55,531 nucleotides of DNA from Paraglaciecola polaris LMG 21857 (GTDB lineage: Bacteria; Pseudomonadota; Gammaproteobacteria; Enterobacterales; Alteromonadaceae), in NCBI RefSeq assembly GCF_000315055.1, contig NZ_BAER01000037.1, positions 1 to 55,531 on the forward strand, read 5' to 3'. Position 1 is the first letter of the stretch. Every line of letters begins with the position of its first letter. Made by a program: the position numbers and the translations under genes. This document shows, in pieces, positions 2,648 to 54,430 of this stretch. The notes under the pieces are model-generated. The model saw nothing but the letters and a program-made list of their open reading frames with translations, ran no database searches and was not told the DNA's origin.

Positions 2648-3688
2648 TTAAAATCCGAAGTGCGGACGTGTCGCTTTAATCTTCAGGCCGGCTTGCATCC
2701 AGCGTAGATTCATTCCAGTGGTGGGATTGGTTCTGTCACTCCAAATATACGTGATCGTTTTTCCGCTAGCATCATCAATTAAACCAAATTTAAAAATCGG
2801 GTCTGACGTGTTTTGATAGGTTAGCAAGGCCAACTGGATGGAATAACCTGATTTTTCACCGGTTTTTGCATCTTGCAAAGCAACAATTTGCCCTTCGTTA
2901 TGCATGAGTAAATCACGATTGAAAACCCACTTCGCATCGTCTGGGGCGTCCTTTCCACCGATACGGGTGCCGCCCCAGCCAGTAAAATAAACCACCTTAC
3001 GATTTTTATGCGGGATACCGGCTTTATTACCAAACACATAATTACCCTCTTCATCAGCAGCTTTATCCGCTATCCAAATTTCGTTATCCGTTAAACGTAG
3101 TGTGTCGTTGAAGAATATTTTTTTACCACTGCGTTTAGACACAATACTGCAACTGTTGTGGCCCATAGTGCCGTCGAAGTATTCGCCGTTGTAACGCCAA
3201 TACACTTCGCATCCCGGATAAGTAGTGATCTGGTCTGGTGTTAAGGTTTGATACAACTCTGGATGTAAGTGAGCATCAGCGTATTTGGCTTCATCCTTAA
3301 AACGATAAATATTTAACTGCAATGCACCTTTTTCTTCGTTTTGCACAAATTGATACAAGCGCTGGCGATATACCTTGCTTGGGTCGCCGTCCATATATTG
3401 TTTTACGAAATAGGTTGTGCCTTCAAGGGCCGGTGTTGCCAGCGGCGCGAACACATGATGAATATGCTCATGTACCTGCAACTCAGGATCATTTTCTTTT
3501 GAAATATTGTCTTGCCAATGTTGTTCGTGGTTATCAAATTCAGCCGCAAACCATTGGTGGAAAAGCGCTTCTTGAATGGTATCAACATCTTGTTCTTTTG
3601 CCGAGGCGGCCACCTGTAATGTGCCTTGTTGGCTGGCACATCCTGCCAGACTGGCGGCGACACATAACGCAGCGATAATTTTTTTCAT
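2648..3688 (-). CDS. CpcT/CpeT-like (DUF1001) lipoprotein
   Basis: This is a 346-residue predicted lipoprotein with lipobox LAGC (Cys17), so it should be anchored to a membrane facing the periplasm. The body resembles the chromophore lyase CpcT/CpeT family. A W-x2-E-F-D-N start region comes first, then a central stretch with GCEVYWRYNGEYFDGTMGHN and C-S-I near residues 165-185, then the family-like ending IWIADKAADEEGNYVFGNK followed by a basic and aromatic strand. In cyanobacteria these calycin-fold proteins bind open-chain tetrapyrroles and attach them to phycobiliproteins; here there are no phycobiliproteins. The ATG at 3688 has an AGGGA ribosome site; an earlier in-frame start overlaps the upstream gene. 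It is the last gene of the operon, 16 bp after a CoA-transferase. A bilin-binding role is an inference from the family alone. Confidence 0.75.
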   Translation of the reverse strand: MKKIIAALCVAASLAGCASQQGTLQVAASAKEQDVDTIQEALFHQWFAAEFDNHEQHWQDNISKENDPELQVHEHIHHVFAPLATPALEGTTYFVKQYMDGDPSKVYRQRLYQFVQNEEKGALQLNIYRFKDEAKYADAHLHPELYQTLTPDQITTYPGCEVYWRYNGEYFDGTMGHNSCSIVSKRSGKKIFFNDTLRLTDNEIWIADKAADEEGNYVFGNKAGIPHKNRKVVYFTGWGGTRIGGKDAPDDAKWVFNRDLLMHNEGQIVALQDAKTGEKSGYSIQLALLTYQNTSDPIFKFGLIDDASGKTITYIWSDRTNPTTGMNLRWMQAGLKIKATRPHFGF

Positions 3689-3704
3689 ATCTGTCCCTAA
3701 GTAG

Positions 3705-4865
3705 TTAAATAAACGCATTTTCACTGCGCATGGTTGCTATATCTTGTTCGCTGTAGCCCAGTTCACTTAACAGTGTTTCCGTGTCTTGGCTAAACCCGGG
3801 TAAGGTAAGCTTGGGTTGTGCTGGCTCTTGTTGAAACTTAACCGGCACACCGAGATGTAAGTTGCCATGCTCATCGGTTAACAACATATCGCGCTGGGCT
3901 AAATGTTCGTCACGCACAGCATCGTTTAAACTGCGCACCGGTGACCAACACACGTCAATATCAGCTAAAAACGTCTGCCATTGACTGAGCGTTTTACTGG
4001 CAAAAGTATCTTTAAAAAATTCTTTCACTGGTATTTGTGCGCTGCCTGGCGGCTGCTGACAAAGTGCAATTAAGTCTGCTCTGTCCAAAGCCATCAGTAA
4101 GTTTTTGGCAAACTTAATCTCACTGCCACCTAAGGTAATATGCTGGCCGTCGCTGGTTTGGTAAATATTGTACATGGCTGCCCCGCCCCAACTGCGTTCC
4201 TCTTTGGGATCAGGGGAGCGATTTTCAGCAAACGGTGGGCCCATCACATTGGCATACCAAGCCACCAGTGAGTCTTGCATGGATATATCAATGTAATCCC
4301 CTTGGCCGGTTTGTTGGCAGCGTAACAAGGCCATTAACACCCCGGAGAATGCCATTAAGCTGCCCGCCATATCGGCTACCGGCATGGCGGGCTGAGCGGG
4401 TTTACCGTCTTGCCCCTGATTAATCTGCAATGCCCCTGAGTCGGCTTGAATACTCAGGTCATGAGCTGGATTTAAACGCTTCGGACCCGTTTGGCCGTAG
4501 GCGGAAATTGAGCAATAGACAATTTTTGGATTGATCTTTTTGATAGTCGCAAAATCAATACCTAAGCGTTCAACTACGCCTGGGCGAAATGCTTCAACTA
4601 TCACATCAACGGTTTCACATAATTTGTAAAACGCCTGTTTTCCGGCTTCACTTTTTAAATTCAGGTTAATGCTTTTTTTACCGCGAAATACGTTCCTAAA
4701 CCACACCGACTGACCATTTTGCTGTAGGCCGATTTCCCGCACTGGCTCGCCGGTAGGTGGCTCAAGACTGATCACGTCAGCGCCATGATCGGCCATCATC
4801 ATCGTAAAATGCGGGCCCGGCAAGAACAGGGATAAATCGAGTACTCTAATTCCGTCTAATTTCAC
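3705..4865 (-). CDS. Family III (CaiB/BaiF) CoA-transferase
   Basis: This is a 386-residue class III CoA-transferase. It would move CoA from an acyl-CoA donor to a carboxylic acid through an aspartyl-CoA thioester in the cytoplasm. The N-terminal GIRVLDLSLFLPGP, the ADHGADVISLEPP stretch and the conserved Asp165 in PVADMAG are the family hallmarks, and length is typical. It sits between a second, divergent CoA-transferase (41 bp upstream) and the CpcT/CpeT-like lipoprotein (16 bp downstream), so the operon carries two activating enzymes. That fits either two acids to activate or an intramolecular CoA shift such as that of mesaconyl-CoA C1-C4 transferase. Substrate not determinable; family certain. 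Confidence 0.93.
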   Translation of the reverse strand: MKLDGIRVLDLSLFLPGPHFTMMMADHGADVISLEPPTGEPVREIGLQQNGQSVWFRNVFRGKKSINLNLKSEAGKQAFYKLCETVDVIVEAFRPGVVERLGIDFATIKKINPKIVYCSISAYGQTGPKRLNPAHDLSIQADSGALQINQGQDGKPAQPAMPVADMAGSLMAFSGVLMALLRCQQTGQGDYIDISMQDSLVAWYANVMGPPFAENRSPDPKEERSWGGAAMYNIYQTSDGQHITLGGSEIKFAKNLLMALDRADLIALCQQPPGSAQIPVKEFFKDTFASKTLSQWQTFLADIDVCWSPVRSLNDAVRDEHLAQRDMLLTDEHGNLHLGVPVKFQQEPAQPKLTLPGFSQDTETLLSELGYSEQDIATMRSENAFI

Positions 4866-4906
4866 CTAGCGCCCCTCATTTTGATTGATACAAAGATGCT
4901 GGCACA

Positions 4907-6097
4907 TCACACCGCTTTTCCTGCACTAAGCTCAGCAATTTGTGCTGCGCTGTAGCCAAGTTCCTTCAGCAGAGACTCGGTATCAGTCCCCATAGGTACG
5001 GCAGCTTTTCCGCTTAGACGCTGACCATCAAGTTTGATGGGATTAGCCAGTATTTCCATTTTTTGATTAGCAGGGTGCGGCACACTTTGCACCATACCGA
5101 TATCGCGAATGTATTGGTTGTTTAATGCCTCAGGTACATCATAAACGGGCGCACAAGGAATACGTCCTTTAAGTACTTCAAGCCAATGGGCAGTTGGGTG
5201 AGCAGCTAATACGCGGTCAATCTCTGCGGTTAATACATCGCGGTTTTCCCGCCGTCCTGCAACAGCCGCAAAACGTGACTCTTTCAACACCGCGTCGTCT
5301 AAAATATCCACCAGCACATCCCAAAATTTATCCGTCATGGCCATAAGGAACACGAAGCTGTCTTGGGTTTTATAAAGCTGACATGGCACAGTCGCAGGGT
5401 GTGCTGAACGCGCCACGCGCTGCACCACATGGTTCTCGTTTAAATACCAAGTCGCCGGGTACGACAATTGATGCAAGGCTACGTCGAACAAAGATACGTC
5501 CACATCACGCCCTTGCCCAGTACGGTGGGCTCCGAGCATGGCGGCCGTTAGGCCTAAAGACGCCACCGCCCCGGTCATAAAGTCGACCATAGACACCCCA
5601 AAGCGTGTGGGCGCTTGGTCTGGCTCGCCAGTGAGCGACATCAAACCCGCTTCGGCTTGCATCAAGTAATCATAACCGGGCCAACTTGCCCGGTCGTTAT
5701 CACGGCCGTAGGCAGATAAATGTCCACAGACAATTTTTGGATTAATGTGCTTTAACTGCTCGTAGGTGATACCTAATTTTTGTGGCTGGTCGCCCCGTAA
5801 GTTGTTGGTCACAGCATCGGCTGTTTTCACGAGTTTCTCGAAGACTTTTCGCCCTTCGGGTGACTTTAAATTTAACGTCAGACTCTTTTTATTGACGTTA
5901 AACGTCTGGTAAAAATAGCTGTCGTTTTCACCCAAGAAAAATGGACCGGTTTGGCGAGACACATCTCCGCCAATGGCAGGGTTCTCGATTTTAATCACCT
6001 CGGCGCCCAAGTCCGCTAAATACATGGAGCCATAAGGCCCTGCCCCATATTGTTCAACTGCAATAATACGTACACCATCAAGGGGAAGTTGTGTCAT
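4907..6097 (-). CDS. Family III CoA-transferase, second operon copy
   Basis: This is a 396-residue CaiB/BaiF family CoA-transferase, with the N-terminal GVRIIAVEQYGAGPYGSMYLADLGAEVIKIE block and catalytic Asp172 in VSMVDFMTG. I chose the ATG at 6097 because an AGGA ribosome site precedes it; a longer in-frame start at 6154 lacks one. It differs clearly from its neighbour at 3705-4865, so the pair is not a recent duplication. Its place beside acyl-CoA dehydrogenase, MaoC hydratase and CitE-like lyase genes points to activation of a carboxylic acid, probably a substituted dicarboxylate such as a methylsuccinate or mesaconate-type acid. That substrate class is inferred from the operon. Confidence 0.93.
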   Translation of the reverse strand: MTQLPLDGVRIIAVEQYGAGPYGSMYLADLGAEVIKIENPAIGGDVSRQTGPFFLGENDSYFYQTFNVNKKSLTLNLKSPEGRKVFEKLVKTADAVTNNLRGDQPQKLGITYEQLKHINPKIVCGHLSAYGRDNDRASWPGYDYLMQAEAGLMSLTGEPDQAPTRFGVSMVDFMTGAVASLGLTAAMLGAHRTGQGRDVDVSLFDVALHQLSYPATWYLNENHVVQRVARSAHPATVPCQLYKTQDSFVFLMAMTDKFWDVLVDILDDAVLKESRFAAVAGRRENRDVLTAEIDRVLAAHPTAHWLEVLKGRIPCAPVYDVPEALNNQYIRDIGMVQSVPHPANQKMEILANPIKLDGQRLSGKAAVPMGTDTESLLKELGYSAAQIAELSAGKAV

Positions 6098-6177
6098 GGC
6101 TGTGTCCTGTATTTTAACTGTTTTTTGATGTAGATCTGGGCTTAGCAAATTCATTTACTAAGCCCAGCTGATAAGCG

Positions 6178-7353
6178 TTAAATTTTATTCTTATCGATAA
6201 TTTGCTTAGCAATGATAATCCGCTGCATTTCGTTGGTACCCTCACCAATACACATCAACATGGCATCCCGGTAGAAACGCTCAATGTCGTATTCCACCGA
6301 ATAACTGTAACCGCCAAAAATCCGCATGGCTTCGTTGGCACAAAATACCCCAGCTTCAGAGCCAAAGTATTTCGCCATGCCCGCTTCCAGATCGCAGCGT
6401 TCGTTGGCGTCATATTTAGCCGCGGCTTGCTCTATCAGCAGTCGGGCTGCTTCTACTTGGGTCGCCATTTCCCCTAACTTGAGCTGAATAGCCTGATGCT
6501 GGCAAATCGGCTTGCCAAATGTTTCACGCTCTTGTGCGTAGCGCACAGCAAGTTCAGTTGCGCCTCTGGCAATGCCGGCACCCCGTGCAGCAACATTAAT
6601 GCGCCCCAGCTCTAACCCACCAATGGCGTGTTTGAAACCTGAACCTTCTTTTTCACCGACCAAGTTGGCAGCGGGTACGCGTACGTTTTCAAATACCACT
6701 TCACAGGTATCAATTGAGCGATAACCGAGCTTTTTCATCTTGGAGACAGTGATACCTGCCTTGAATTCACCCTTTTCATCTTTGGTTTCAACAATAAACA
6801 TGCTGGTGCCTTTATGAGCCGGCACGGCATTCAGATCGGTTTTTACCAGCACGGCTAATGAGTTACCGTTTAATGAATTGGTGATCCAGGTTTTCGCCCC
6901 ATTGATGATGTAATCATCGCCGTCTCTTACCGCTGTGCTGCGAATAGCTTGTAAATCTGTGCCCGCATTGGGCTCTGTTAAAGCAACCCCTCCGCGTAAC
7001 TCGCCTGTTGCCATACGCGGCAAAAAGCGCTCTTTTTGCGCCTGAGTGCCGCAACGCTCTATGGCTGAAGCCTGGATCAAATGTGAATTGAATATGCCAC
7101 TGGGTGCCATCCACGCTGACGCGACTTTCATCACTATTTTGGCGTAGATGGAAGCCGGTAAACCCAGCCCGCCAAACTCTTGGCCTATAGTGGCACCAAA
7201 TAAACCCAACTCTTTCATTTGCTCAGCAAGTGCATGGGGATATTTGTCTGCTTGATCATATTCTTTGGCAATGGGGCGAACGTCGTTCTCTACCCACTTG
7301 TCGATCATGTCTATGATCCCTAACTCATCTTCTTTTGACCATGCTTCAGACAT
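6178..7353 (-). CDS. Acyl-CoA dehydrogenase
   Basis: This is a 391-residue FAD acyl-CoA dehydrogenase that introduces a 2,3-double bond into an acyl-CoA and passes electrons to ETF. The three usual domains are present. The middle domain has VALTEPNAGTDLQAIRS and WITN, and the C-terminal domain carries the catalytic glutamate in GEGTNEMQR (Glu371) after YDIERFYRDA. Length is normal. It lies 80 bp upstream of a CoA-transferase and 16 bp downstream of a MaoC-type hydratase gene. Dehydrogenation would therefore precede hydration in the pathway, as in methylsuccinyl-CoA to mesaconyl-CoA chemistry. Family certain; a short branched or dicarboxylic substrate is inferred from neighbours. Confidence 0.95.
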   Translation of the reverse strand: MSEAWSKEDELGIIDMIDKWVENDVRPIAKEYDQADKYPHALAEQMKELGLFGATIGQEFGGLGLPASIYAKIVMKVASAWMAPSGIFNSHLIQASAIERCGTQAQKERFLPRMATGELRGGVALTEPNAGTDLQAIRSTAVRDGDDYIINGAKTWITNSLNGNSLAVLVKTDLNAVPAHKGTSMFIVETKDEKGEFKAGITVSKMKKLGYRSIDTCEVVFENVRVPAANLVGEKEGSGFKHAIGGLELGRINVAARGAGIARGATELAVRYAQERETFGKPICQHQAIQLKLGEMATQVEAARLLIEQAAAKYDANERCDLEAGMAKYFGSEAGVFCANEAMRIFGGYSYSVEYDIERFYRDAMLMCIGEGTNEMQRIIIAKQIIDKNKI

Positions 7354-7369: not shown

Positions 7370-7888
7370 TTAATAATTAACTTTTTCTTCAACCGAATGG
7401 CCTTGCTTGGCAATTAACATCTTGCGCACAAAGCTACATATCTGCTTACCGTCTTGGTTAAAACCAAGGGTTTCTACCGTGACTATGCCAGCACCTGGGC
7501 GTGATTTAGACTCACGTTTGTCGAGCACTTTTGACTCGGCGTACAAGGTGTCATCTTCAAATAACGGATAGGTCATTTTGATGTCTTCCCAGCCTAAGTT
7601 TGCAATCGCCTTTTGGCTCACATCCGTAACGCTCATGCCGACCATTAAGGCGACGGTAAAGGGCGAGCACACAATACATTTGCCAAACTCACTGGCCTTG
7701 GCGTACTCATCGTCAAAGTGCATAGGATGCGTATTCATGGTTAACAGGGTGAACCAGGTGTTGTCCGTTTTAGTGATAGTGCGTCCAGGACGATGCTCAT
7801 AGGTATCACCCACAGTAAACTCTTCAAAACATCTACCGAAGGTTTCGCGATAACGGTTTTCGCCGACTTTTTTTACATTCTGTACCAT
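7370..7888 (-). CDS. MaoC-family enoyl-CoA hydratase (mesaconyl/itaconyl-CoA hydratase-like)
   Basis: This is a 172-residue hot-dog-fold hydratase. The catalytic region reads TLLTMNTHPMHFDDEYA, where the usual Asp-x-Asn-Pro-x-His motif of R-specific hydratases appears as Asn-x-x-Pro-x-His; I believe this variant occurs in mesaconyl-CoA and itaconyl-CoA hydratase relatives. It overlaps the upstream lyase gene by one base and is followed 16 bp later by the acyl-CoA dehydrogenase. The combination CoA-transferase, MaoC hydratase and CitE lyase is the known gene set for itaconate and mesaconate breakdown through citramalyl-CoA. Family confident, exact substrate inferred. Confidence 0.9.
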   Translation of the reverse strand: MVQNVKKVGENRYRETFGRCFEEFTVGDTYEHRPGRTITKTDNTWFTLLTMNTHPMHFDDEYAKASEFGKCIVCSPFTVALMVGMSVTDVSQKAIANLGWEDIKMTYPLFEDDTLYAESKVLDKRESKSRPGAGIVTVETLGFNQDGKQICSFVRKMLIAKQGHSVEEKVNY

Positions 7889-8733
7889 TAGTTTTCTCTC
7901 TCGGTTTTGGGTTTTGAAGACGCGTTATTGACTAACGCTAACGTGCGTTGACAGGCTAAAATAATCGGCCTGTCGACCATTTTATTGTTGACCACCACCA
8001 CGCCAGCATCGAGTCCATCGACGGCGGCCATAACGGCTTGGGCATAGGCAACTTGCTGTTCGGTGGGCATAAAAGTGTGATGAATCGCGTCAATCTGACA
8101 AGGATGAATCGCGGCTTTTCCACTAAAGCCCAAGGCTTTAACCTTGGCAGTCTCAGTGCGTAATCCCGAGTCACTTTTTATGTCTACATACGGTACATCG
8201 ATAAGTCCCACATTGGCTTTTGCCGCAGCAAACACCAATTGACTACGTACAAACAACAATGGCTGATAACCAAATTCACAGCGCAGCTCAGCGGCCATAT
8301 CCGCGCCGCCAAACATAATGTGTTCGACTTGCGCGCAGGCGCTGGCTATTTGATAGGCATTTTCAACCCCAGTCAGGGTTTCGATTAACGGAATAAAACG
8401 TGTATTGGGTTGGTTAATGACACGCTGTGCGTGCAGCACATCGTTGGCAGATTCACACTTAGCTAGCATGATCACATCGGGTGCGGTGGCATTCGCAAAA
8501 GCGTGTAAGTCTTTTTCGCCTGTTTCAGTACCAACAGGATTAATGCGCACGCAGAGCTTTTTTTCGTTATCAATGCAGGCCAACACAGCTGCACGAGCTG
8601 CGTCTTTATTCGCTGGCAGAACCGCATCTTCTAAATCAATGCAAACTAGATCAGCCCCTGCTGCTAATGCTTTTTCAAATCGCTCGGGCCGTGACCCAGG
8701 CACAAACAGTAATGAACGCAAAATATTGCTCAT
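7888..8733 (-). CDS. HpcH/HpaI-CitE family lyase (citramalyl/malyl-CoA lyase-like)
   Basis: This is a 281-residue TIM-barrel lyase of the citrate lyase beta/HpcH-HpaI family, which cleaves malyl-CoA-type esters into an acyl-CoA and an oxo acid. Family residues are visible: RSLLFVPGSRPERF at the start, the metal region DLEDAV (about residues 33-38), RINPVGTETG, IETLTGV and GGADMAAEL. Length matches malyl-CoA and citramalyl-CoA lyases. It overlaps the MaoC gene by one base and starts 2 bp after the PuuE-like gene ends, so translation is tightly coupled. It would be the final carbon-carbon cleaving step of this operon's route. Which hydroxyacyl-CoA it cleaves is unknown. Confidence 0.9.
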   Translation of the reverse strand: MSNILRSLLFVPGSRPERFEKALAAGADLVCIDLEDAVLPANKDAARAAVLACIDNEKKLCVRINPVGTETGEKDLHAFANATAPDVIMLAKCESANDVLHAQRVINQPNTRFIPLIETLTGVENAYQIASACAQVEHIMFGGADMAAELRCEFGYQPLLFVRSQLVFAAAKANVGLIDVPYVDIKSDSGLRTETAKVKALGFSGKAAIHPCQIDAIHHTFMPTEQQVAYAQAVMAAVDGLDAGVVVVNNKMVDRPIILACQRTLALVNNASSKPKTEREN

Positions 8734-8735: not shown

Positions 8736-9626
8736 TTATTCACCATCACTGTTTTGAGGAATAAAACTGGCTGCAGGTACCTGCTCTTTAAACGTTTCTG
8801 CGATTTCTTGGCGAGTAGCAAACCATACACCCGGCTTGTTACTGACATATTCAAGGAACGCTGCTAATGCACCAATACGACCTGGGCGACCGATAATGCG
8901 CAGGTGTAACCCTAAGCTCATCATTCTGGGTTGCTCAGCACCTTCTTCGTAGAGTACATCGAAGGTATCAATGGCGTATTTAAGCCAATCGTCTGGGGTA
9001 AGTGAGGGCGCAACCCACATTTTCATATCATTTGAATCAAGAGCGTAAGGCACGATAACCATAGGTTCATCAGAGCCAGAAACCGCATCCCAAAATGGTG
9101 CATCAGCGCTGTAATCATCCATGTGGTACAAGAAGCCTTCCTCTTGCAACAAGCGGCGGGTGTTTTCGGTTAATAAATAACGCGACAACCAACCCAGAGG
9201 ACGTTTACCTGTGGTTTTTTCGATACTGGTGACGGCATCTTTAATAAACTGGCGTTCTTCATTTTCGTCCATGCGAAATTGAAATATCCAGCGGTAACCA
9301 TGGGAGCAAGTTTCATCATTTCGACGAGCAATGGCCTCAGCAATCTGCGGTGCACGCTCTAAGCTCAATGCGGCAGCGGTCCACGTTGCTGGCATCTGGT
9401 ATTTATCGAGCAATTTAATGATGCGCGGCGCACCTTCGTTAATACCATATTGGTAGTTCGACTCGTTGCCGTAATTGCGCATAGGCTTTTTCAAATGAAC
9501 TTGTAACTCGTCCACCGGCTCCATGCCTTTATCGCCTTCTTTTACGCTGTACTCTGAGCCTTCTTCGACATTCACCACAATGGACATGGCAAGTCGCGTA
9601 TCGTTTGGCCATTTAAAATCTGACAT
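8736..9626 (-). CDS. PuuE/cyclic-imidase-like polysaccharide-deacetylase-family hydrolase
   Basis: This is a 296-residue NodB-fold protein of the branch that contains PuuE allantoinase and bacterial cyclic-imide hydrolases, not the sugar deacetylases. Motif 1 is VVNVEEGSEYS instead of the TFDDG of sugar enzymes. Motif 2 is CSHGYRW, and a C-terminal GLHLRIIGRPGRI matches the GxHxxxxGRPxR loop of PuuE. Such enzymes open ring amides. No other purine or ureide genes are nearby, so allantoin is unlikely. It is 2 bp from the CitE-like lyase gene and 38 bp after an SDR gene. The start is ATG 9626; a TTG one codon earlier is possible. Two more members lie at 22875-24760. Ring-opening of an imide or lactam is inferred. 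Confidence 0.85.
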   Translation of the reverse strand: MSDFKWPNDTRLAMSIVVNVEEGSEYSVKEGDKGMEPVDELQVHLKKPMRNYGNESNYQYGINEGAPRIIKLLDKYQMPATWTAAALSLERAPQIAEAIARRNDETCSHGYRWIFQFRMDENEERQFIKDAVTSIEKTTGKRPLGWLSRYLLTENTRRLLQEEGFLYHMDDYSADAPFWDAVSGSDEPMVIVPYALDSNDMKMWVAPSLTPDDWLKYAIDTFDVLYEEGAEQPRMMSLGLHLRIIGRPGRIGALAAFLEYVSNKPGVWFATRQEIAETFKEQVPAASFIPQNSDGE

Positions 9627-9664
9627 CAATTTACTCGCTTATGTTCTTTTATGGACGTTCATAA

Positions 9665-10507
9665 TTAATGATATTCTTCGCCGCCGGACACATTCATACA
9701 CTCGCCCGTGATGTAACTGGCTTGCTCTGAACATAAAAATGCACAGGCTTTGGCTGTATCTTCCTGCAACCCCGGTCGCCCTAACGGAATACGATCGCGC
9801 ATGTCTTGCATGTACTGCTCATAGCCTTTGCCGGTCACTTCTGAGAAATGCGCGTTTTGCCATGCGCCTAAACCTGTGGTGACATGATTTGGACAAATTT
9901 CGTTGACGTTAATCTTATGGCTGCCCAGCTCGATAGCCGCAACGCGGGTTAATCCGTTCATGCCGTGTTTAGAGGTGGTATAAGCAGATGCATGTCCAAA
10001 GGCAGACTTAGATGCCTGAGAGCCAATATTGATGATTTTGCCGCCCTTGCCTTGTTTAACCATTTGCGCTGCTGCGTATTTAACCCCAAGGAAGGTACCC
10101 CGCAGATTAACGCCTAACACCGCATCCCATTCATCCACTTGCATGTCTAAAATGGATTTCATCAAATAACCGATACCGGCGTTGTTGATCCAAATATCTA
10201 GCGCACCATAAGTGGCTACCGCAAAATCTACCGCCCCTTGTACGTCTTGTTCATTTAACACGTTGCACACAAACGCACTGGCGTCACCACCTGCTTGTTT
10301 GATGTCTGCGACGATTTGATTCATTTCCTCACTGTGGCCAATGGCGTTGTCCGGAGTATGTTCACTGACAGATTTACCGATGTCGGTGATCACCACTTTG
10401 CAACCCTCTGCCGCTAGCCGTTTGGCCATGGCTTCACCTAACCCAGCTTGTCGCCCTGCTCCGGTAATAACGGCCACTTTGCCTTTTAGTTCTGGATATT
10501 GAGACAT
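9665..10507 (-). CDS. Short-chain dehydrogenase/reductase
   Basis: This is a 280-residue Rossmann-fold SDR oxidoreductase using NAD(P). The cofactor motif is VITGAGRQAGLGEAMAK, with DIWINNAGIG in the middle. The active site has a Ser in NIGSQASKSAFG and the YxxxK motif as YTTSK. It ends in a typical CAFLCSEQASYITGECMNVSGG tail. It is the second gene of the operon, 8 bp after the small REDY-like gene. It would oxidise an alcohol or reduce a ketone on the pathway substrate or an intermediate. Specificity cannot be read from the sequence. Confidence 0.94.
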   Translation of the reverse strand: MSQYPELKGKVAVITGAGRQAGLGEAMAKRLAAEGCKVVITDIGKSVSEHTPDNAIGHSEEMNQIVADIKQAGGDASAFVCNVLNEQDVQGAVDFAVATYGALDIWINNAGIGYLMKSILDMQVDEWDAVLGVNLRGTFLGVKYAAAQMVKQGKGGKIINIGSQASKSAFGHASAYTTSKHGMNGLTRVAAIELGSHKINVNEICPNHVTTGLGAWQNAHFSEVTGKGYEQYMQDMRDRIPLGRPGLQEDTAKACAFLCSEQASYITGECMNVSGGEEYH

Positions 10508-47488: not shown

Positions 47489-48688
47489 ATGACAAATTCG
47501 GTTATGACAAATTCAGCAAGATTGCCGTTAACCGGCATTAAAGTGGTTGAATTCACGCACATGGTAATGGGACCTACCGCTGGGGTTATTTTGGCCGACT
47601 TAGGGGCACAAGTGATCAAAGTTGAGCCCCTTGGTGGCGATAATACCCGGCGCTTAAAAGGCTCAGGTGCAGGTTATTTTTCGATGTACAACCGCAACAA
47701 ACAAAGTGTTTGCTTGGACATTAAATCTCCCGAAGGAAAAGACGTAGCACTATCGTTACTCAAAGAAGCGGATATCTTACTGGAGAATTTTCGCCCAGGT
47801 GCAATGGACAAATTAGGCTTGGGTTACGAACACCTAAAAAGCATTAATCCACGCCTGATCTATTGCTCACTGAAAGGATTTTTAAGCGGCCCTTATGCCC
47901 ATCGCACCGCGCTTGATGAAGTGACCCAAATGATGGGCGGCTTGGCTTACATGACGGGGTTGCCTGACAAGCCCATGCGCGCTGGCTCATCAGTTATCGA
48001 TATAACAGGCGGTATGTTTGGCGTCATCGGTATTTTAGCTGCACTTGAAGAGCGCCATCATACCGACGAGGGCAAAAATGTGACCTGCTCTTTATACGAA
48101 ACTACAGCCTTTATGGTCGGTCAACATATGGCCCAACAAGCGGTTACGGGGGAAGCCCCACCACCTATGTCAGTGCGCCGTTCAGCTTGGGCTATATACG
48201 ATATATTCCACTGTGCTAATAATGAACAAGTATTTATTGGCGTGGTCAGCGATACCCAGTGGCGCATATTCTGTGAAGCATTTGCGCTGAAAGAGTTCGC
48301 CCTGGATCAGACTTTAGCCTTAAACAATGGCCGGGTTGCTCAGCGAGAGCGTATTTTACCCGTGATAAACGCCGTCTTCGCCAAGCACAGTAAAGAGGAA
48401 CTGATGGCCAAATTAGAAAAATCTGGTTTGCCCTTCGCTCCTATTAATAAACCGTCTGATTTGTTTGACGACCCGCATTTAAATGCCGGTGGTTTATTGG
48501 ATGTTACCCTGCCCGATGGGCATAAAACCAAGTTACCTGGTCTCCCCCTTGAGATGAACAATGCACGCATGCCACTAAGGCACGACATACCCACAGAGAA
48601 GGGTAACTCGGTGGCAACCTTAAAAGGGGCTGGTTTTAGTGATGATGATATTAAAAAGCTGTTAGCACTGGGCGTTGTTAAAGCCTAG
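47489..48688 (+). CDS. Family III CoA-transferase, GntR regulon copy
   Basis: This 399-residue CaiB/BaiF CoA-transferase has GIKVVEFTHMVMGPTAGVILADLG, VIKVEPLGGD and the catalytic Asp in SSVIDITGGMFG. The N-terminus carries an 11-bp direct duplication (ATGACAAATTC twice, 47489 and 47504), so the second ATG is an equally good start. A GntR-type operator is upstream. It ends in a 14-bp bidirectional terminator. It would activate the acid made by the LeuCD-like or oxidase genes; inferred. Confidence 0.93.
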   Translation: MTNSVMTNSARLPLTGIKVVEFTHMVMGPTAGVILADLGAQVIKVEPLGGDNTRRLKGSGAGYFSMYNRNKQSVCLDIKSPEGKDVALSLLKEADILLENFRPGAMDKLGLGYEHLKSINPRLIYCSLKGFLSGPYAHRTALDEVTQMMGGLAYMTGLPDKPMRAGSSVIDITGGMFGVIGILAALEERHHTDEGKNVTCSLYETTAFMVGQHMAQQAVTGEAPPPMSVRRSAWAIYDIFHCANNEQVFIGVVSDTQWRIFCEAFALKEFALDQTLALNNGRVAQRERILPVINAVFAKHSKEELMAKLEKSGLPFAPINKPSDLFDDPHLNAGGLLDVTLPDGHKTKLPGLPLEMNNARMPLRHDIPTEKGNSVATLKGAGFSDDDIKKLLALGVVKA

Positions 48689-48891: not shown

Positions 48892-49542
48892 CTAAGCAAG
48901 CCACGGGTATTGTGCTTGGTAAGTGTGCTTGAAGTTTTCAATTTTGGACTTTGACTTAAGCGTTAACGCGATACCATCTAGGCCTTCAAGTAACATGGCT
49001 TGCTGTGCTGGCAAAATGGAGAATGGAAAGCTCAGGCCTTCATTAGCGTCTTTACCTTTGTCATTTTTGGTATCTAGCACACTGACATAACAGTCAACTA
49101 AGTTGACGTTTAGTTGACACACTTGTGGGTCTCGCTGAACCTGTTTGGCTAATACCAGCACTTGGTCGTTTTGCAACACCACGGGTAAAATGCCATTTCT
49201 AATACAATTATGATAAAAAATAGAGCCAAATCCAGAGGCGAAAATCGCTTTAATACCGTATTCTTTCAGCGCCCATACCGCATGCTCTCGTGATGAGCCG
49301 CAGCCGAAATTGTCACCTGCTAACAAAATACTCGTGCCTTCATACTGCGCTTGATTAAGAACAAAATCTGGGCTGGGCTCACGACCATTGGGCAAAGTAT
49401 AACGCCAGCCAGCAAACAAGCCTTCCCCTAACCCTTGTTTTGACACTAACTTCATTTCCCTAGACGGTATAATGGCATCGGTGTCGATATTAATTTGCAA
49501 CATAGGGGCGGCGACCCCTTGATGAACAGTGAATTTTTCCAT
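48892..49542 (-). CDS. LeuD-type small subunit of an aconitase-family hydratase
   Basis: This 216-residue small subunit has the LeuD swivelling-domain signature: DTDAIIPSREM, then GDNFGCGSSREHAVWALKEYGIKAIF and FYHNCIRNGILP. It would pair with the large subunit encoded next door (one-base overlap at 49542). No leuA, leuB or leuO is present, and the operon contains an FAD oxidase and an alpha/beta hydrolase, so a catabolic hydratase (for example for an alkylmaleate or citraconate-type acid) is more likely than leucine synthesis. Confidence 0.92.
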   Translation of the reverse strand: MEKFTVHQGVAAPMLQINIDTDAIIPSREMKLVSKQGLGEGLFAGWRYTLPNGREPSPDFVLNQAQYEGTSILLAGDNFGCGSSREHAVWALKEYGIKAIFASGFGSIFYHNCIRNGILPVVLQNDQVLVLAKQVQRDPQVCQLNVNLVDCYVSVLDTKNDKGKDANEGLSFPFSILPAQQAMLLEGLDGIALTLKSKSKIENFKHTYQAQYPWLA

Positions 49543-50945
49543 TACAAGTACTCTCTAACATCGGCAATACAGCCCGCAATAGCACAAGCGGCAACCGTAG
49601 CCGGACTCGCTAGATGGGAGCGAGTTTCTGGGCCTTGCCTGCTTTCAAAGTTACGATTGGTACTGGTGACCACACGTTGGCGATAAGCAAAGCTTTCACC
49701 ACCAGCAAAAAAGCACATCGAACAGCCCGCTTCTCGCCATTCAAACCCAGCGTCGATAAATATTTTGTCGAGCCCTTCCGCTTCCGCTTGGCGCTTTACT
49801 GTGGTCGAACCCGGTACACATATGGCGTTCACACCAGGAGCGACCTTGCGTCCTGTTAATACTTTGGCCGCTAAGCGCAAATCCGACAAGCGACTATTGG
49901 TACACGAGCCTATAAACGCCGCCCCGATAGGTAACCCTTTTAACGGTGTTCCAGGTGATAACCCCATATATTCGTAGGCGCGCTGCATCGCTTTACGCTG
50001 ATTCTCGGTAGCGTTTTTATCTATATGTGGGACACTGGCATCCACTGCGCATGCGTGCTGTGGGCTATTGCCCCACGTTATGGTTGGGCCTATGCCCGCG
50101 CAGTCTATATCGATTACTTTATCGAACTGAGCGTGCTCATCAGTGAACAAAGACTGCCAAAACGTGACCGCTTGGGTCCACAACGCACCTTTAGGCGCAT
50201 ATTCACGGCCCTTTAAATATTCAATCGCCTTGTCATCGGGTGCCACTAGACCGGTAAATGCAGAAAACTCAACGGCCATATTACATAGGGTTAACCGAGC
50301 TTCTATATCAAGTCCTGTAACGGCCTCACCGCAAAATTCAATGACATAACCAGCGCCACCAGCTGCACCATATGCAGCGATTAAATACAAAATCATGTCT
50401 TTGGCACTGACGCCAAACCCCAGCTCACCGTTGAAGTTGACCTTCATGGTTTTGGGTTTACTGACTCTTAATGTTTTCGTTGCCAGCGCATGCTCCGCTT
50501 CGCTAGAGCCTATGCCCCACGCTAAAGCGCCTAATGCGCCTTGGGAGCAAGTATGACTGTCGGGGCAGACTAATGTTGCGCCGGGTTGCACTATGCCAAG
50601 TTCCGGCGACACTACGTGCACAATACCTTGCTGGGGATCAGTAACATCGAATAACTTTATCTTGGCGTCGATACACGCTTCACGCGTGGCCAAAATGAAG
50701 TTCTTACCACTGGGAACCTGCGTGTTGTCGCCTCTGCCGACCAAGGTATCAACAATATGATCCATGGTACAAAATACGTGCTCTGGGGAAACGACTGGGC
50801 GCTGATCAGCGGCTAAACTTTTAAGGGCAATCGAACCGGTACGTTCATGTAAAAACACCCGGTCGATGTATATCAATGCTGCGCCATCATCGAGCTTTTC
50901 AACGAGGTGATGTTGCCAAATTTTTTCAAATAATGTTCTGTCCAT
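49542..50945 (-). CDS. LeuC-type large subunit of an aconitase-family hydratase
   Basis: This 467-residue iron-sulfur hydratase large subunit has the [4Fe-4S] cysteines in IGSCTNSRLSDLR and in AGCSMCFFAGG, plus the early VCPDSHTCSQGALGALAWGIG. In leucine-pathway LeuC the second motif normally continues as LGMN; here it continues as FFAGG, which points to a different branch (dimethylmaleate/citraconate-type hydratases). It lies 5 bp after the alpha/beta hydrolase gene, in the operon led by the FAD oxidase. Confidence 0.92.
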   Translation of the reverse strand: MDRTLFEKIWQHHLVEKLDDGAALIYIDRVFLHERTGSIALKSLAADQRPVVSPEHVFCTMDHIVDTLVGRGDNTQVPSGKNFILATREACIDAKIKLFDVTDPQQGIVHVVSPELGIVQPGATLVCPDSHTCSQGALGALAWGIGSSEAEHALATKTLRVSKPKTMKVNFNGELGFGVSAKDMILYLIAAYGAAGGAGYVIEFCGEAVTGLDIEARLTLCNMAVEFSAFTGLVAPDDKAIEYLKGREYAPKGALWTQAVTFWQSLFTDEHAQFDKVIDIDCAGIGPTITWGNSPQHACAVDASVPHIDKNATENQRKAMQRAYEYMGLSPGTPLKGLPIGAAFIGSCTNSRLSDLRLAAKVLTGRKVAPGVNAICVPGSTTVKRQAEAEGLDKIFIDAGFEWREAGCSMCFFAGGESFAYRQRVVTSTNRNFESRQGPETRSHLASPATVAACAIAGCIADVREYL

Positions 50946-50950: not shown

Positions 50951-51835
50951 TTACTCATCTGATGTTTGGCTAAGGCGGTGCATAGACGCCTTAAGTGCGA
51001 TAAAACGCCCTTCCATGCCAGCCTGTGCAGGGCACATTTTTATATTCGACGGCAAATCAGCGTCGTCTAAGCGATCCACGTATTGCTTTAACAGACTCGA
51101 TTGCCAACGAATAATGTGCGTGGGCACAGTCACAGGTTGCAACTGCTCAGGGCGCTCATTCATAAACGCCGCGCGATAGGCCAAATGGTAATTTTCACCT
51201 GCGGTTAAATACCCCATAACAGTGTCTTGAATTACCTGCGCAGGAATTTCAGCATTGCCGACGCGAGCATGTTCTGAACTATCAAACCATGGGAAATAGT
51301 GAAATAACTGACTCGACATTTTCCACACCAATGCCAGATGCGAACCATCCTCTTGCGCCTTAATATCAGGAAAATACTCGGCTAAAATGGCGTTGCGTTC
51401 GTCGTCTTTAAACCAAGCCGCATTTTCGAGCACCATGCCCTTGATTGTTTCTGGGTATGCTTTGGCATATTCAATGGCTATTTGTGCTCCCGTTGCCGAA
51501 CCATATAACAAGGGTTTCTTCAGCCCCAAAGCGCTTATGAATTCATTCAATGCTTGCACATACGGCCGAAGACTTGGTGCTTGCGCTTCTAGGCCGTTAC
51601 TTTGATTTGACGTCAAGGGATCTGACTGCCCATAGCCTGGTGTATCCATAGCAATTACCCAAAAGGAATCAGATAACGCATGCATAATGGGTAGCATAAC
51701 GGCAGATGACATAGGTGATGCATGGAGCAAGATAATCACAGGTAGAGACGTTTTACCTTGGCTACGATAATGTATTTGCCAGGGTTTATCGTCGCCCAAG
51801 GTAACATAATGTTTAGTGACAGCAGCACTGCTCAT
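50951..51835 (-). CDS. Alpha/beta-hydrolase-fold protein with altered elbow
   Basis: This 294-residue alpha/beta hydrolase has VIILLHASPMSSAVMLP and AMDTPGYGQSD, and a nucleophile elbow LLYGSATGAQIAIEYA. If aligned as G-x-Nu-x-G the nucleophile position is Ala (G-S-A-T-G), although a Ser sits one residue earlier. I chose the ATG at 51835 because a GGAG site precedes it. It follows the restored end of the FAD oxidase by 4 bp and precedes the LeuC-type gene by 5 bp. Together with 40384-41199 it forms a pair of atypical alpha/beta hydrolases in one regulon. Confidence 0.85.
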   Translation of the reverse strand: MSSAAVTKHYVTLGDDKPWQIHYRSQGKTSLPVIILLHASPMSSAVMLPIMHALSDSFWVIAMDTPGYGQSDPLTSNQSNGLEAQAPSLRPYVQALNEFISALGLKKPLLYGSATGAQIAIEYAKAYPETIKGMVLENAAWFKDDERNAILAEYFPDIKAQEDGSHLALVWKMSSQLFHYFPWFDSSEHARVGNAEIPAQVIQDTVMGYLTAGENYHLAYRAAFMNERPEQLQPVTVPTHIIRWQSSLLKQYVDRLDDADLPSNIKMCPAQAGMEGRFIALKASMHRLSQTSDE

Positions 51836-51839
51836 TGCA

Positions 51840-53427
51840 TTACTCCAAACCCAATGTTTCAGGATTAACTCGGCCATTAGGATCGACCATAGCTTTAATG
51901 CCTTGGATCAGTTTATAGGTGTCAGGCTGCAAGCCTTCTTTAAACTGATAGGTTTTACCTATTTGCAAATGCACACCGCCTAATTCTTTAAAAAAACGTG
52001 CTTAACTCGATGCGTATTTCGTGCACTTTTACTCTAGCAGGCAGGTTCTCTTCATGTTTACCGACTTTGGCTAAATAGTCAGCCTCAACGCTTTTCTCAT
52101 GGATTTCGGTGTACGCGTCAGGCCAGAAAAACACAGGCTCTAATACAAAACAGTTATTCGCCACGACCGCAAATAGATAACCCACCCCGATGTCGAATTT
52201 TTCAATATCGGCGGCGTGTTTAGCAAAAATAGCTTCCACGCCATCATGGGCTTGCTTGATTTTTGAATGGGGGAACAAGCCGTGCACTGGCACCCAACGT
52301 TCGCCGTCCGGGCCTAACATATTATTGACCGGCCCAAACGGGTTCGAACGGGTAATTTTAGGAATACTATTTTCGATTTCACTGCCGTTGTATTGCTTAG
52401 CAATGGCACGAATATCGTTCATACGGGCATCCACGGCGGCGTCAATGCGGTCCTCAACAATGATCTGTACCGAGTAACCCACATCTTTCATATAGCCTCG
52501 ACCAGCCATAGCTAACTTAGCGCCATCTTTAAGTGCCCCCAGAAATGTGCCGGACGATTTCATCACGCCAGCCAACGCTTTTACATCTTTAGCCAGACTT
52601 TCACGCTTTAGACGCAAAGCTTGTAAGAAGGGATCAAAGCCAAAGCACTCCATGGCTAACCCTTGGCGAGAAACTTCGCTCATGGCAGCAATACAATCAT
52701 CAGCTTGTTTAAAATCAAACGCCAAGAATCCTTTCGCTGGCAACTCAGGGATTAAACGAAACGTAGCCGTCGCTTTAAAGCCTAGCGCGCCATTGTCACA
52801 GGTAAAAATACCAGTGAGATCAGGCCCATAATGACGGAAAAACGGGGTACCGTTAATTTGTGCACCTGAGCCAGTTGTCACTAAGGTACCGTCAACTAAC
52901 GCGACCTCCAAGCCGATAACCGAATCAACCGCTGTGCCGAATTGGCCTGAGCCCCAAAAAATAGCGTTCTGCGACAAACCACCGCCTACTGTGGCTTTGC
53001 TACCTGATAGAGTGCCCCAATACGGTGTGCGTACCCCTTTTCCTTTAAGTGCTTCGTGGAGCTTTTTCCAGGTACACCCAGATTCAACGGTGACGTACAT
53101 ATCTTGCGTGTTTATTTCTAATACCCGATTCATTCGGCTAAGATCTACCATGACGCTGTGTGCTTTTGCTGGCACATATCCTTTGGTGTATGACATACCG
53201 CCCCCACGAGGCACCACATTCATTTCGAATTCAGCGGCTATTTTTAACACTTCGCTCAACTCATGTTTATCACCTGGGCTAACGACCATCTCGGCTGGGA
53301 TGTCTTTGGTAAATACATCCTGAGCATACAAACTGGTGGAGTAATCATCGACCAATACATTATCTTTGCCTAACACTGAAATCATGGCCGTTAACATATC
53401 TTGCTTAGGTTGAGTATTTGTATTCAA
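51840..53427 (-). pseudogene. FAD-linked oxidase (VAO/4-cresol dehydrogenase family), frameshifted near its end
   Basis: The reading frame encodes a VAO-family FAD oxidase: PRGGGMSYTKGY and GCTWKKLHEALKGKGVRTPYWGT in the FAD-binding domain, then a C-terminal cap domain. The uninterrupted frame stops at 51988. In the next frame 48 more residues complete the family: KELGGVHLQIGKTYQF, then MVDPNGRVNPETLGLE and a stop at 51840, 4 bp before the next gene. The break is at seven T on the coding strand (51990-51996). It is an indel, a sequencing slip or a +1 slippery site. The start is probably TTG 53427, which has GGAG upstream; 53469 lacks a ribosome site. Confidence 0.85.
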
Positions 53428-53597
53428 AGCCTTCTCCTGACAATTTAATTTGTGTGCTACCTGGGGCAATACTACATGCCTCAGCGAATTAAAACCTATT
53501 GTTCTATCATTAGGACATTACAACATTAATTTCAACCTGACAACACATGATTGCATGGGCCTTTGACAAAAGACTTGCCGCGCTATTTATGTTATCT

Positions 53598-53615
53598 TGT
53601 TATATTGATATATCA
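53598..53615. promoter_or_regulatory. GntR operator site 3 (divergent gntR / FAD oxidase promoter)
   Basis: The site TGTTATATTGATATATCA has TGTTATAT and ATATATCA halves. It is located between the GntR gene (starts 53657) and the FAD oxidase operon (starts 53427), so it could regulate both and autoregulate the repressor. Confidence 0.65.
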
Positions 53616-53656
53616 TTTCTTGCACCACGCAGATACTAAATGGAGATGGATAGCCC

Positions 53657-54430
53657 ATGTCATTCGATTCTCAGTTCACTTCGCTAAATCAAACCAAGTT
53701 AAATGAAGAGTCACCTACCCCCCTTTACTACCAGTTATACAGTTTGCTCAAGCAAAATATCTTAAACGGTAGTTTGGAGGACGGTTCACAATTGCCAACC
53801 GAATTGGGCTTGTCTCAAGCGTTCAGCATTTCACGGATAACCGCTAAACGCGCCCTTGACGAGCTTGCCGCTGAGGGATTGGTAGCCAGACGCCGCGCAA
53901 AAGGCACTCATGTGACACACAAATATCAGCCAAAACCCGTGAAAGCACCATTAGTCGGCATGTTGCAAGAACTGGAATTTATGGGCCAACACTCTGAAGC
54001 AAAAGTGATTGAGCTAACAACTGCTCGCCCACCAGGGGATATTGCACAAGAGTTCGCATTACTCGAAGGGGAAACGTTATTGAAAATGACCCGAGTGCGT
54101 AGCCGTTTACATGAAGCCTTCGGCTATTACACCAGCTGGAGTAAAGGCCTGAGCAAGTTCAACGAAAAAGCCAGCTTAGAGTCCACTACTCGACTCGAGA
54201 TATTTCGCAAAAATGGTATTGAAATCAAGCATGTTAAACAAATACTTAGCGCCACTGCAGCAACCCCAGAAGTGGCCAAAGAACTAGATGTTGAGCCAGG
54301 CTTTCCGTTATTGAGCTTGACCCGTCGCTCTTACGATGAAAATGAAAATTTAGTCGATTACTTGCATGCCCAATATCATCCTGAGCGCTTTCAATACCGT
54401 ATGGATTTAACCCCCGATTCATCCAATTAG
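53657..54430 (+). CDS. HutC-type GntR-family transcriptional regulator
   Basis: This 257-residue regulator has an N-terminal winged helix-turn-helix (TPLYYQLYSLLKQNILNGSL, then LSQAFSISRITAKRALDELAAEGLV) and a C-terminal UTRA effector domain from about residue 95. HutC-type proteins bind AT-rich palindromes and lose DNA binding when they meet their ligand. Its own promoter has such a site (53598-53615), and two more are at 43500 and 47386. An AGATGG-type ribosome region precedes the start. The effector is probably the substrate or an early intermediate of this region. Confidence 0.93.
   Translation: MSFDSQFTSLNQTKLNEESPTPLYYQLYSLLKQNILNGSLEDGSQLPTELGLSQAFSISRITAKRALDELAAEGLVARRRAKGTHVTHKYQPKPVKAPLVGMLQELEFMGQHSEAKVIELTTARPPGDIAQEFALLEGETLLKMTRVRSRLHEAFGYYTSWSKGLSKFNEKASLESTTRLEIFRKNGIEIKHVKQILSATAATPEVAKELDVEPGFPLLSLTRRSYDENENLVDYLHAQYHPERFQYRMDLTPDSSN

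Follow-up and report, generated by a model that had tools for sequence, protein, structure and literature searches.

A three-block gene island of Paraglaciecola polaris as a candidate catabolic unit for alkyl-substituted cyclic imides

In Aspergillus, the dehydrogenase HxnW makes a cyclic imide, HxnM opens it, and the amidase HxnN frees the nitrogen; HxnM shares 64.2% identity with a P. putida cyclic imide hydrolase homologue and is nearest in structure to 3qbu (PMC9304392, here and below in excerpt). Chlorophyll is made and degraded on a scale of 10^12 kg yearly. In vitro degradation of chlorophyll a gives hematinic acid, which has also been found in leaves; the degradation scheme includes methyl, methyl-ethyl, and methyl-vinyl maleimide, and work cited there reports maleimides as well as hematinic acid from senescing leaves and from the sediments of lakes (PMC7318184, likewise in excerpt). 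Among the literature matches listed for maleimide, phyllobilin, hematinic acid, and porphyrin-ring catabolism, there was no matching gene cluster and no described bacterial gene set for breaking down maleimides or hematinic acid. Here we describe a gene island in Paraglaciecola polaris LMG 21857, contig NZ_BAER01000037.1. The window analyzed is that entire contig (55531 bases) of a 5.24 Mb draft genome. Judged by its profile matches, the island is a catabolic unit built from known enzyme families, and the balance of the evidence leans toward a multi-module unit for alkyl-substituted cyclic imides or hydroxylactams.

The island forms one evolutionary unit of three blocks (48-10824, 17248-24760, and 36599-55197) with unrelated genes between them. 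Block 1 runs on the minus strand from 10824 to 48 in the order HapK, SDR, PuuE1, CitE, MaoC, acyl-CoA dehydrogenase, CaiB2, CaiB1, CpeT, and TBDT1; every gap from HapK to CpeT is at most 41 bases, and this block therefore reads as a single operon. Block 2 has TBDT2, orf19584, MT, and orf21179 on the minus strand and IsoCh, PuuE2, and PuuE3 on the plus strand. Block 3 contains DUF1838, 4HBT, ECH, orf38902, orf39932, ABH1, TBDT3, ADH, GST, CMD, HMGL, CaiB3, LeuD, LeuC, ABH2, FAD4, GntR, and a DUF2269-like gene. Window proteins were assigned to families with Pfam and NCBIfam profiles. Loci around relatives of PuuE1 (the best 80 of 159; 76 outside Paraglaciecola and 4 inside) were compared with flanks of up to 10 kb at thresholds of 40% identity and 60% coverage. 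The nearest named relatives of PuuE1 are in Paraglaciecola, at 91-93% identity. The genes on which the argument rests are given below; the figure closing a line is the number of the 76 outside loci with that gene, and "clustered genomes" are the 14 island genomes, window included, whose island regions entered the clustering.

2648..3724, minus: CpeT, CpeT/CpcT-like lipoprotein (PF06206, 129 bits, above the cut-off of 21; lipobox-like LAGC); 5
3705..4865, minus: CaiB1, family III CoA-transferase (PF02515); 36
4907..6154, minus: CaiB2, family III CoA-transferase (PF02515); 40
6178..7353, minus: acyl-CoA dehydrogenase (PF00441); 29
7370..7888, minus: MaoC-type hydratase, RipB/Ich-like (NF038241, 238.9 bits, under the cut-off of 340); 28
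7888..8733, minus: CitE-type lyase, RipC-like (NF038242, 229 bits, under the cut-off of 375); 25
8736..9629, minus: PuuE1, candidate cyclic imidase (PF01522; TIGR03212, 254.2 bits against a cut-off of 424.6)
9665..10507, minus: SDR dehydrogenase directly before PuuE1 (PF13561), candidate for the hydroxylactam-to-imide step on the HxnW/HxnM precedent; 45
10516..10824, minus: HapK, REDY-like protein, first gene of block 1 (PF11639, 41.7 bits, E 1.7e-10, above the cut-off of 25); 40
19584..19958, minus: orf19584, small conserved protein of the core (14/14 clustered genomes); 11
19959..21182, minus: MT, methyltransferase-domain protein of the core (PF13649); 16
22175..22846, plus: IsoCh, isochorismatase-fold amidase, candidate half-amidase (PF00857); 9
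22875..23831, plus: PuuE2, candidate imidase of the core (PF01522); 9
23831..24760, plus: PuuE3, candidate imidase of the core (PF01522; ATG at 23831; 14/14 clustered genomes); 9
36599..37519, minus: DUF1838 protein with a signal-peptide-like start (PF08894); 3
37995..38774, minus: ECH, enoyl-CoA hydratase family protein (PF00378); 19
38902..39798, plus: orf38902, found after LeuC2-LeuD2(-lyase) in LeuC2-type genomes; 2
46274..47206, minus: HMGL-type lyase (PF00682; loop GCP.APGA[ST]GN in 10/10 aligned rows); 2
47489..48688, plus: CaiB3 CoA-transferase (PF02515; best NCBIfam match succinate-glutarate CoA-transferase NF052585, 255.5 bits against a cut-off of 750); 2
48892..49542, minus: LeuD-like small subunit of an aconitase-family hydratase (PF00694); 2
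49542..50945, minus: LeuC-like large subunit (PF00330); 2
51988..53469, minus: FAD4, FAD-linked oxidase (PF01565; 10/14 clustered genomes); 2

A preliminary description had read this DNA as one candidate pathway for a cyclic imide or lactam, possibly bilin-derived maleimides. Pfam and NCBIfam agree with its inventory of three PuuE-like hydrolases, an isochorismatase-fold protein, LeuD/LeuC, three family III CoA-transferases, an acyl-CoA dehydrogenase, MaoC, CitE-like and HMGL-like lyases, a CpeT/CpcT-like lipoprotein, and a REDY-like HapK protein. The three TonB receptors that it counted all exist; the first (48-2471) lies outside the span 2648..54430 that it assigned to the pathway. That span does hold three linked blocks, and a sizeable part of it consists of other genes: 20 genes from 10.9-17.1 kb and 24.8-36.4 kb were tested, and the 76 outside loci contained none of them. 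We conclude that the genes between the blocks are bystanders and do not belong to the set.

The proposed pathway is as follows. The SDR would oxidize a hydroxylactam to an imide, which the PuuE-type imidases would open to a half-amide. IsoCh, or an Amidase-family enzyme in some relatives, would free ammonia from the half-amide, and the resulting alkylmaleate would be converted to an alkylmalate by the aconitase-family hydratase (LeuCD here, LeuC2/LeuD2 elsewhere). In the window, the alkylmalate would become a CoA ester through CaiB3 and then be cleaved by HMGL to pyruvate and an acid; in other genomes it would be split by a methylisocitrate-lyase-like enzyme. By analogy with RipB and RipC, block 1 (CaiB1/2, acyl-CoA dehydrogenase, MaoC, and CitE) may provide a parallel route for reduced rings, with CoA transfer, alkylsuccinyl-CoA dehydrogenation, hydration by MaoC, and cleavage of a citramalyl-type CoA ester by CitE. 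HapK and FAD4 could conceivably act in a cleavage upstream of these steps. From the linkage of the genes, we regard the imide-to-alkylmalate chemistry as reasonably probable.

Several properties of the proteins bear on these assignments. The polysaccharide-deacetylase-family profile PF01522 was over its cut-off in all three PuuE-like proteins; PuuE1 and PuuE2 both match PDB 3qbu and 3cl6, and PuuE1 matched 1z7a at 241 bits and 3qbu at 62.7 bits. The IsoCh pattern G.[ST][TS]SGC[IV] was present in 18/18 rows, and IsoCh matched N-carbamoylsarcosine amidohydrolase in the PDB at 99 bits. HapK matched PDB 2jdj at E 7.9e-6. In the relatives from Shewanella (L020) and Alkalimonas (L018), an Amidase-family gene (F10) lies in the same operon-like run as SDR-PuuE1.

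The island genes travel together across many bacteria that are only distant relatives. At least four of the eight block-1 genes were found in 42 of the 76 outside loci; a gene of block 2 accompanied them in 20 of these 42, a gene of block 3 in 23, and genes of both blocks in 8. In a Burkholderiales metagenome-assembled genome (MAG; L072) and in Aestuariicella (L030), a single run contains genes from each of the three blocks. Co-occurrence was determined in one draw of 147 genomes from the family to which the window belongs, shared by all queries. MT (E<=1e-60) was present in 17 of the 147 and PuuE2 in exactly those 17, with orthologues of at least 79% identity; LeuC (E<=1e-150) was present in 12, all within the 17. 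PuuE1 (E<=1e-60) had matches in 23 genomes. Thirteen of these, at 72% identity or more, were all island genomes; the remaining 10, at 39-45% identity, look like other PuuE copies (one in an island genome, nine in genomes without the island). DUF1838 was found in 16 genomes, 15 of them among the 17, and CpeT in 18, of which 12 were among the 17 and 11 of those exceeded 100 bits. With genomes taken as independent and kinship uncorrected, Fisher P values for marker co-occurrence ranged from 1.3e-7 to 1.3e-22, the last being that for MT with PuuE2 (17/17 shared). Among the rows listed, presence and absence of the island were both seen in eight of the nine positive genera, and a genome of the window's own genus (G004) is without all six markers, which argues against pure kinship. 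A second sample brought together 36 genomes selected by their PuuE1 loci, and it shared six genomes with the 147; PuuE2 was present in 35 of the 36 (in one at only 39% identity, in sphingomonads at 51-55%). The association of the island genes, bystanders excepted, is far beyond chance. A chance placement of the blocks was considered and rejected on the marker co-occurrence and shared loci (17/17 for MT with PuuE2; 35/36 for PuuE2).

The hydratase occurs in two forms. Window-type LeuC was missing from five of the 17 island genomes (G015, G072, G084, G106, and G111), and all five carry another aconitase-family pair, LeuC2/LeuD2. A methylisocitrate-lyase-like gene (K26) was found at E<=1e-80 in 6 of the 147 genomes, namely those five and G135; a search of the window genome at E 1e-80 did not find it. 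K26 scored 298.2 bits, under the PrpB cut-off of 354.4, and the motif K[KR]CGH was present in 15/15 rows. LeuC2-LeuD2-lyase lies between ECH and orf38902 in Psychrosphaera, Aestuariibacter, G072, G084, and G015; the window has only 127 intergenic bases at this place. Orthologues of window LeuC are 57-89% identical to it, and other LeuC copies of the relatives 44-50%. Among the 36 genomes, 20 had window-type LeuC (at least 57% identity), 16 had LeuC2 (at least 55%), one had both, and one had neither, so that 34 had exactly one (P = 4.4e-8 for mutual avoidance). Without the six overlapping genomes the numbers were 17 of 30 for LeuC, 13 of 30 for LeuC2, one with both, and one with neither. PuuE2 and the hydratase shared a contig in 28 of 35 genomes, the two being at most 66 kb apart in all 28 and at most 6 kb apart in 16. 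LeuC goes with CaiB3 and mostly with HMGL too, and LeuC2 often with the methylisocitrate-lyase-like enzyme. LeuC-LeuD-HMGL-CaiB3 faces IsoCh-PuuE2 in three sphingomonads; a Steroidobacteraceae MAG has LeuC, LeuD, HMGL, and CaiB3 in a row; and in Psychrosphaera about 10 kb hold a glutaryl-CoA dehydrogenase gene, IsoCh-PuuE2-PuuE3, DUF1838-4HBT-ECH, and LeuC2-LeuD2-lyase-orf38902. From this reciprocal swap we read LeuC and LeuC2 as belonging to two interchangeable ways of performing one obligatory pair of steps, hydration followed by C-C cleavage.

G084, G111, and G106 have a second module as well (L146/L147, L148, and L150), which comprises an Amdase/maleate-isomerase-like gene and a gene for a PrpB-like lyase (about 50% identity); some of them also have LeuC/LeuD, CaiB3-like, HMGL-like, and FAD monooxygenase genes.

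A gene neighboring the imidases in some relatives (K36) is identified as glutaryl-CoA dehydrogenase through its PDB matches (617 bits to 3d6b and 582 bits to 1sir; the top match, 4w9u at 647 bits, is named acyl-CoA dehydrogenase). It was near IsoCh-PuuE2-PuuE3 in 7 of the 13 LeuC2-type genomes whose IsoCh stretch was examined (G015, G072, G084, G106, G111, Psychrosphaera, and Paraferrimonas), in none of 14 LeuC-type stretches, and not in the one genome with both hydratases. Within the family it was near IsoCh in 5/5 LeuC2-type genomes versus 0/9 LeuC-type stretches; in those five, the distance between its start and that of PuuE2 is 1.8-4.4 kb. Methylisocitrate lyase converts 2-methylisocitrate to pyruvate and succinate, and 2-methylaconitate has its one-carbon homologue in the tricarboxylate that hematinic acid would give; by this homology the same reactions would yield pyruvate and glutarate. 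Conversion of hematinic acid, a fragment of heme and chlorophyll, to pyruvate and glutarate is the most specific prediction made here, and it would fit the glutaryl-CoA dehydrogenase found nearby in part of the relatives.

Tetrapyrrole ring fragments are plausible as the likeliest natural substrates, a choice that we make only tentatively. The CpeT-like protein matched the CpcT structure 4o4o at E 4.5e-11; its alignment had YRxR and PGC motifs in 16/16 rows and a loose lipobox pattern in 13/16 (some genes being counted twice). Strong CpeT matches were present in 11 of the 13 genomes with a close PuuE1 versus none of the four other island genomes. Many hosts of PuuE1 relatives belong to aquatic genera. 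It is possible, although we would not yet count on it, that the island is the missing bacterial route by which chlorophyll, heme, and bilins have their pyrrole rings mineralized. Hematinic-acid-type imides would be opened, deamidated, and hydrated, and then split into pyruvate and glutarate (or glutaryl-CoA) by counterparts of the closing reactions of the methylcitrate cycle; a second block would deal with reduced rings, and the candidate bilin-binding lipoprotein would serve uptake. The island supplies named candidate genes, two interchangeable versions of one step, and a specific predicted product, glutarate, and thereby makes the question of maleimide and hematinic acid breakdown testable in marine and soil bacteria. 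If the proposal is true, it would add new imidases, half-amidases, and maleate hydratases.

The following observations weigh against the imide pathway or its tetrapyrrole origin. The functions of the member enzymes are predictions from families, linkage, co-occurrence, and the module swap, and the related genomes are non-independent observations. TBDT1-3 were found in none of the 76 outside loci; the outer-membrane part of the island is thus not conserved, and the receptors are not kept between genera. Motif tests gave partial results (SHG[YF] in 32/81 PuuE1 and [CS]HG in 12/23 PuuE3 rows; [LVI]KK in 9/18 IsoCh rows; two CitE patterns in 28/31 and 23/31). The K26 lyase does not adjoin LeuC2 in Paraferrimonas, G111, G106, and Stenotrophomonas humi, where it is elsewhere or missing from the run. 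Glutaryl-CoA dehydrogenase is common (117 of 147 genomes, with a second copy elsewhere in G072, G106, and G111 of the five family genomes); it is not near IsoCh in six LeuC2-type genomes of Lysobacter, Stenotrophomonas, and SZAS LIN-99, and the island genomes G045 and G097 have none anywhere at E<=1e-140. Other natural imides exist, and among the scanned window proteins none was recognized as a known tetrapyrrole-cleaving enzyme. CpeT, present in 5 of 76 outside loci, is restricted to some Alteromonadales-type genomes and goes with block 1 only. Maleimides were not detectable in leaves in the chlorophyll study (PMC7318184).

G045 and G097 have the island without a close PuuE1 and carry a caprolactamase-like HyuAB pair, an Amdase/maleate-isomerase-like protein, and a FAD monooxygenase; the island therefore probably exists in versions for different rings. 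Caprolactamase/hydantoinase-type HyuA-HyuB pairs lie near a second MT-like gene or a second LeuCD set in G097, G135, and G045 (L105-L107, L110, and L116), which suggests lactam-opening versions of the island. A VanA_C-type Rieske oxygenase gene is present in L124, L136, and L150; the Rieske oxygenase beside island genes in G084, G111, and G106 matched Pfam VanA_C, Rieske, and weakly KshA_C in the G084 protein scanned, with no PaO family among the matches listed.

The same genes could be arranged into other pathways. Catabolism of a pyridine-type N-heterocycle would have a substituted hydroxypyridine oxidized and cleaved to an N-formyl-alkylmaleamate, with the PuuE-like proteins as deformylases and IsoCh as maleamate amidase. 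An amidase of the IsoCh type is present, an Amdase/maleate-isomerase-like gene and a FAD monooxygenase occur in G045, G097, and G135 (in weaker versions in G084 and G111), and bacterial nicotinate routes go via N-formylmaleamic acid (PMC9304392). However, neither of those two genes nor a pyridine-ring dioxygenase was identified among the window proteins scanned, and three PuuE paralogues with an SDR better match formation and opening of an imide; we consider this pathway unlikely. Glutarimide-type catabolism, in which a six-membered imide would be opened, deamidated to glutarate, CoA-activated, and oxidized while the hydratase and lyase modules serve something else, is quite unlikely. The fungal HxnM does act on a six-membered imide (PMC9304392), glutaryl-CoA dehydrogenase lies close to PuuE2 in the five family genomes, and the best NCBIfam match of CaiB3, far under its cut-off, is to a succinate-glutarate CoA-transferase. 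This scheme nevertheless leaves unexplained the LeuC or LeuC2 present in 35 of 36 genomes, near PuuE2 where the contig is shared, and the dehydrogenase is absent from two island genomes and not nearby in six more.

Catabolism of a terpenoid, steroid, or other nitrogen-free compound, with the PuuE-like proteins as accessory deacetylases, would suit the many CoA enzymes, the TonB receptors, and the name of one host, Sphingobium estronivorans; because few parts of the island are as constant as the imidase and amidase genes, we judge it improbable. To ureide or purine catabolism we give hardly any credence. Its allantoinases would be the PuuE-like proteins, whose nearest named family is indeed allantoinase PuuE, but other PuuE copies, 39-45% identical to PuuE1, are present in ten family genomes, nine of them without the island, and the CoA, hydratase, and lyase genes have no role in a ureide route. 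Allantoinase identity was also rejected by score: PuuE1-3 gave 254.2, 111.4, and 109.6 bits with TIGR03212, all under the equivalog cut-off of 424.6.

The cyclic imide pathway thus remains the reading we prefer, and the preliminary description is confirmed in its observation and partly supported in its interpretation. The pathway class that it had proposed (an imidase and a half-amidase, a LeuCD-type enzyme hydrating a substituted maleate, and a C-C lyase) is strongly backed by the co-occurrence, by the hydratase swap, and by the dehydrogenase-imidase-amidase precedent (PMC9304392). For the co-occurrence of CpcT-like, PuuE-like, and LeuCD-like genes, which it had named as a check, PuuE2 and LeuC/LeuC2 were each present in 35 of 36 genomes; CpeT was in 12 of the 17 core genomes, strongly in 11, and in 5 of the 76 loci. 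The bilin or tetrapyrrole origin is one that we still infer: the CpcT family motifs are kept and hematinic acid arises from chlorophyll a in vitro (PMC7318184), but CpeT is lineage-restricted and the proteins scanned included no known tetrapyrrole-cleaving enzyme.

The other island genes are listed in the same manner.

48..2471, minus: TBDT1, TonB-dependent receptor at the end of block 1 (PF00593/PF07715); 0 (4/4 Paraglaciecola loci)
17248..19146, minus: TBDT2, TonB-dependent receptor (PF00593); 0 (matches confined to Paraglaciecola L008 and G113, a genome of the same genus)
21179..21907, minus: orf21179, all-beta protein (ATG at 21907); 10
37579..37995, minus: 4HBT thioesterase (PF03061); 1
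39932..40387, minus: orf39932, small conserved protein (no Pfam match even at E 1); 0
40384..41199, minus: ABH1, alpha/beta hydrolase (PF00561); 0
41264..43459, minus: TBDT3, TonB-dependent receptor (PF00593/PF07715; 5/14 clustered genomes); 0
43918..44997, minus: ADH, ADH_N_2 enone-reductase-like oxidoreductase (PF16884; NF058644, 355.7 bits against a cut-off of 440); 6
44951..45652, minus: GST, glutathione S-transferase family (PF13417); 0
45678..46247, minus: CMD, carboxymuconolactone decarboxylase family (PF02627); 8
50951..51877, minus: ABH2, alpha/beta hydrolase (PF00561); 3
53657..54430, plus: GntR-family regulator (PF00392/PF07702; 9/14 clustered genomes); 0
54508..55197, minus: DUF2269-like membrane protein, past the span of the preliminary description (PF10027, 23.1 bits, under the cut-off of 28; 10/14 clustered genomes); 0

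Family scans for the type of the TonB receptors returned nothing specific, and Pfam/NCBIfam-type scans of MT gave nothing more informative than generic S-adenosylmethionine domains. The AlphaFold model of orf21179 (pLDDT 71.6) had DUF1849 6ntr as its nearest PDB fold (TM 0.44-0.51). That of DUF1838 (pLDDT 76.4) had no convincing fold match, the single match at E<=0.001 having TM 0.25/0.19; lipocalin or bilin-lyase folds were sought in both models and not found. G135 has four DUF1838 matches, three of them clustered at C41:204553-207183 (L110, L112, and L113). Homologues of orf39932 at 34% identity adjoin LeuC in the sphingomonads L152 and L154.

Around PuuE1 relatives, two MmgE/PrpD-family genes, a PaaK-like ligase gene, and an amidase gene almost abut HapK-SDR-PuuE1 at L020:2943-8564 and L018:1962-7469 (Pfam for L020 only). 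In alphaproteobacterial and unplaced proteobacterial MAGs (L036, L046, L050, L053, and L056), PuuE1-like genes lie beside ABC-transporter-like, dioxygenase-like, and monooxygenase-like genes, named by sequence reading; the PuuE1 family thus occurs in other contexts too. In other Paraglaciecola, a flavin amine-oxidase-family gene follows TBDT1 (L007:19737-20888 and L009:19670-20890), a position that the window contig stops short of. Between blocks 2 and 3, DoxX, DUF2063, MbnB/TglH/ChrH-family, and DUF2282 genes follow one another at 29414-32081, a run that resembles a bufferin-type copper operon for a ribosomally synthesized and post-translationally modified peptide.

Compared with known systems, the island shares with the fungal nicotinate HxnW-HxnM-HxnN series a dehydrogenase, a cyclic imidase related to PuuE/HpPgdA, and an amidase; the Hxn pathway differs in its six-membered ring and its product, alpha-hydroxyglutarate, and a hydratase, CoA-transferase, and lyase are not named in the excerpted text (PMC9304392). 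The LeuC2-type relatives resemble the dimethylmaleate hydratase and dimethylmalate lyase of Eubacterium barkeri in having a two-subunit aconitase-family hydratase and a lyase of the phosphoenolpyruvate-mutase/isocitrate-lyase family. The window has the same type of hydratase (PF00330 and PF00694), but with a CoA-transferase and an HMGL-type lyase instead, and its predicted upstream chemistry is different. With PrpD/PrpB of the methylcitrate cycle, the relatives share a PrpD-like pair and a PrpB-like lyase, although K26 falls below the PrpB cut-off. Block 1 shares a CoA-transferase, MaoC hydratase, and CitE-type lyase with itaconate RipABC and differs in its additional acyl-CoA dehydrogenase, imidase, and SDR; membership in RipABC was rejected on the scores (RipB 238.9/340 and RipC 229/375 bits). 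Finally, the window CpeT-like protein belongs to the same sequence family as the CpcT/CpeT phycobilin lyases and has their YRxR/PGC motifs, but it is lipoprotein-like, longer, and encoded in a predicted catabolic operon of a Paraglaciecola-type bacterium.

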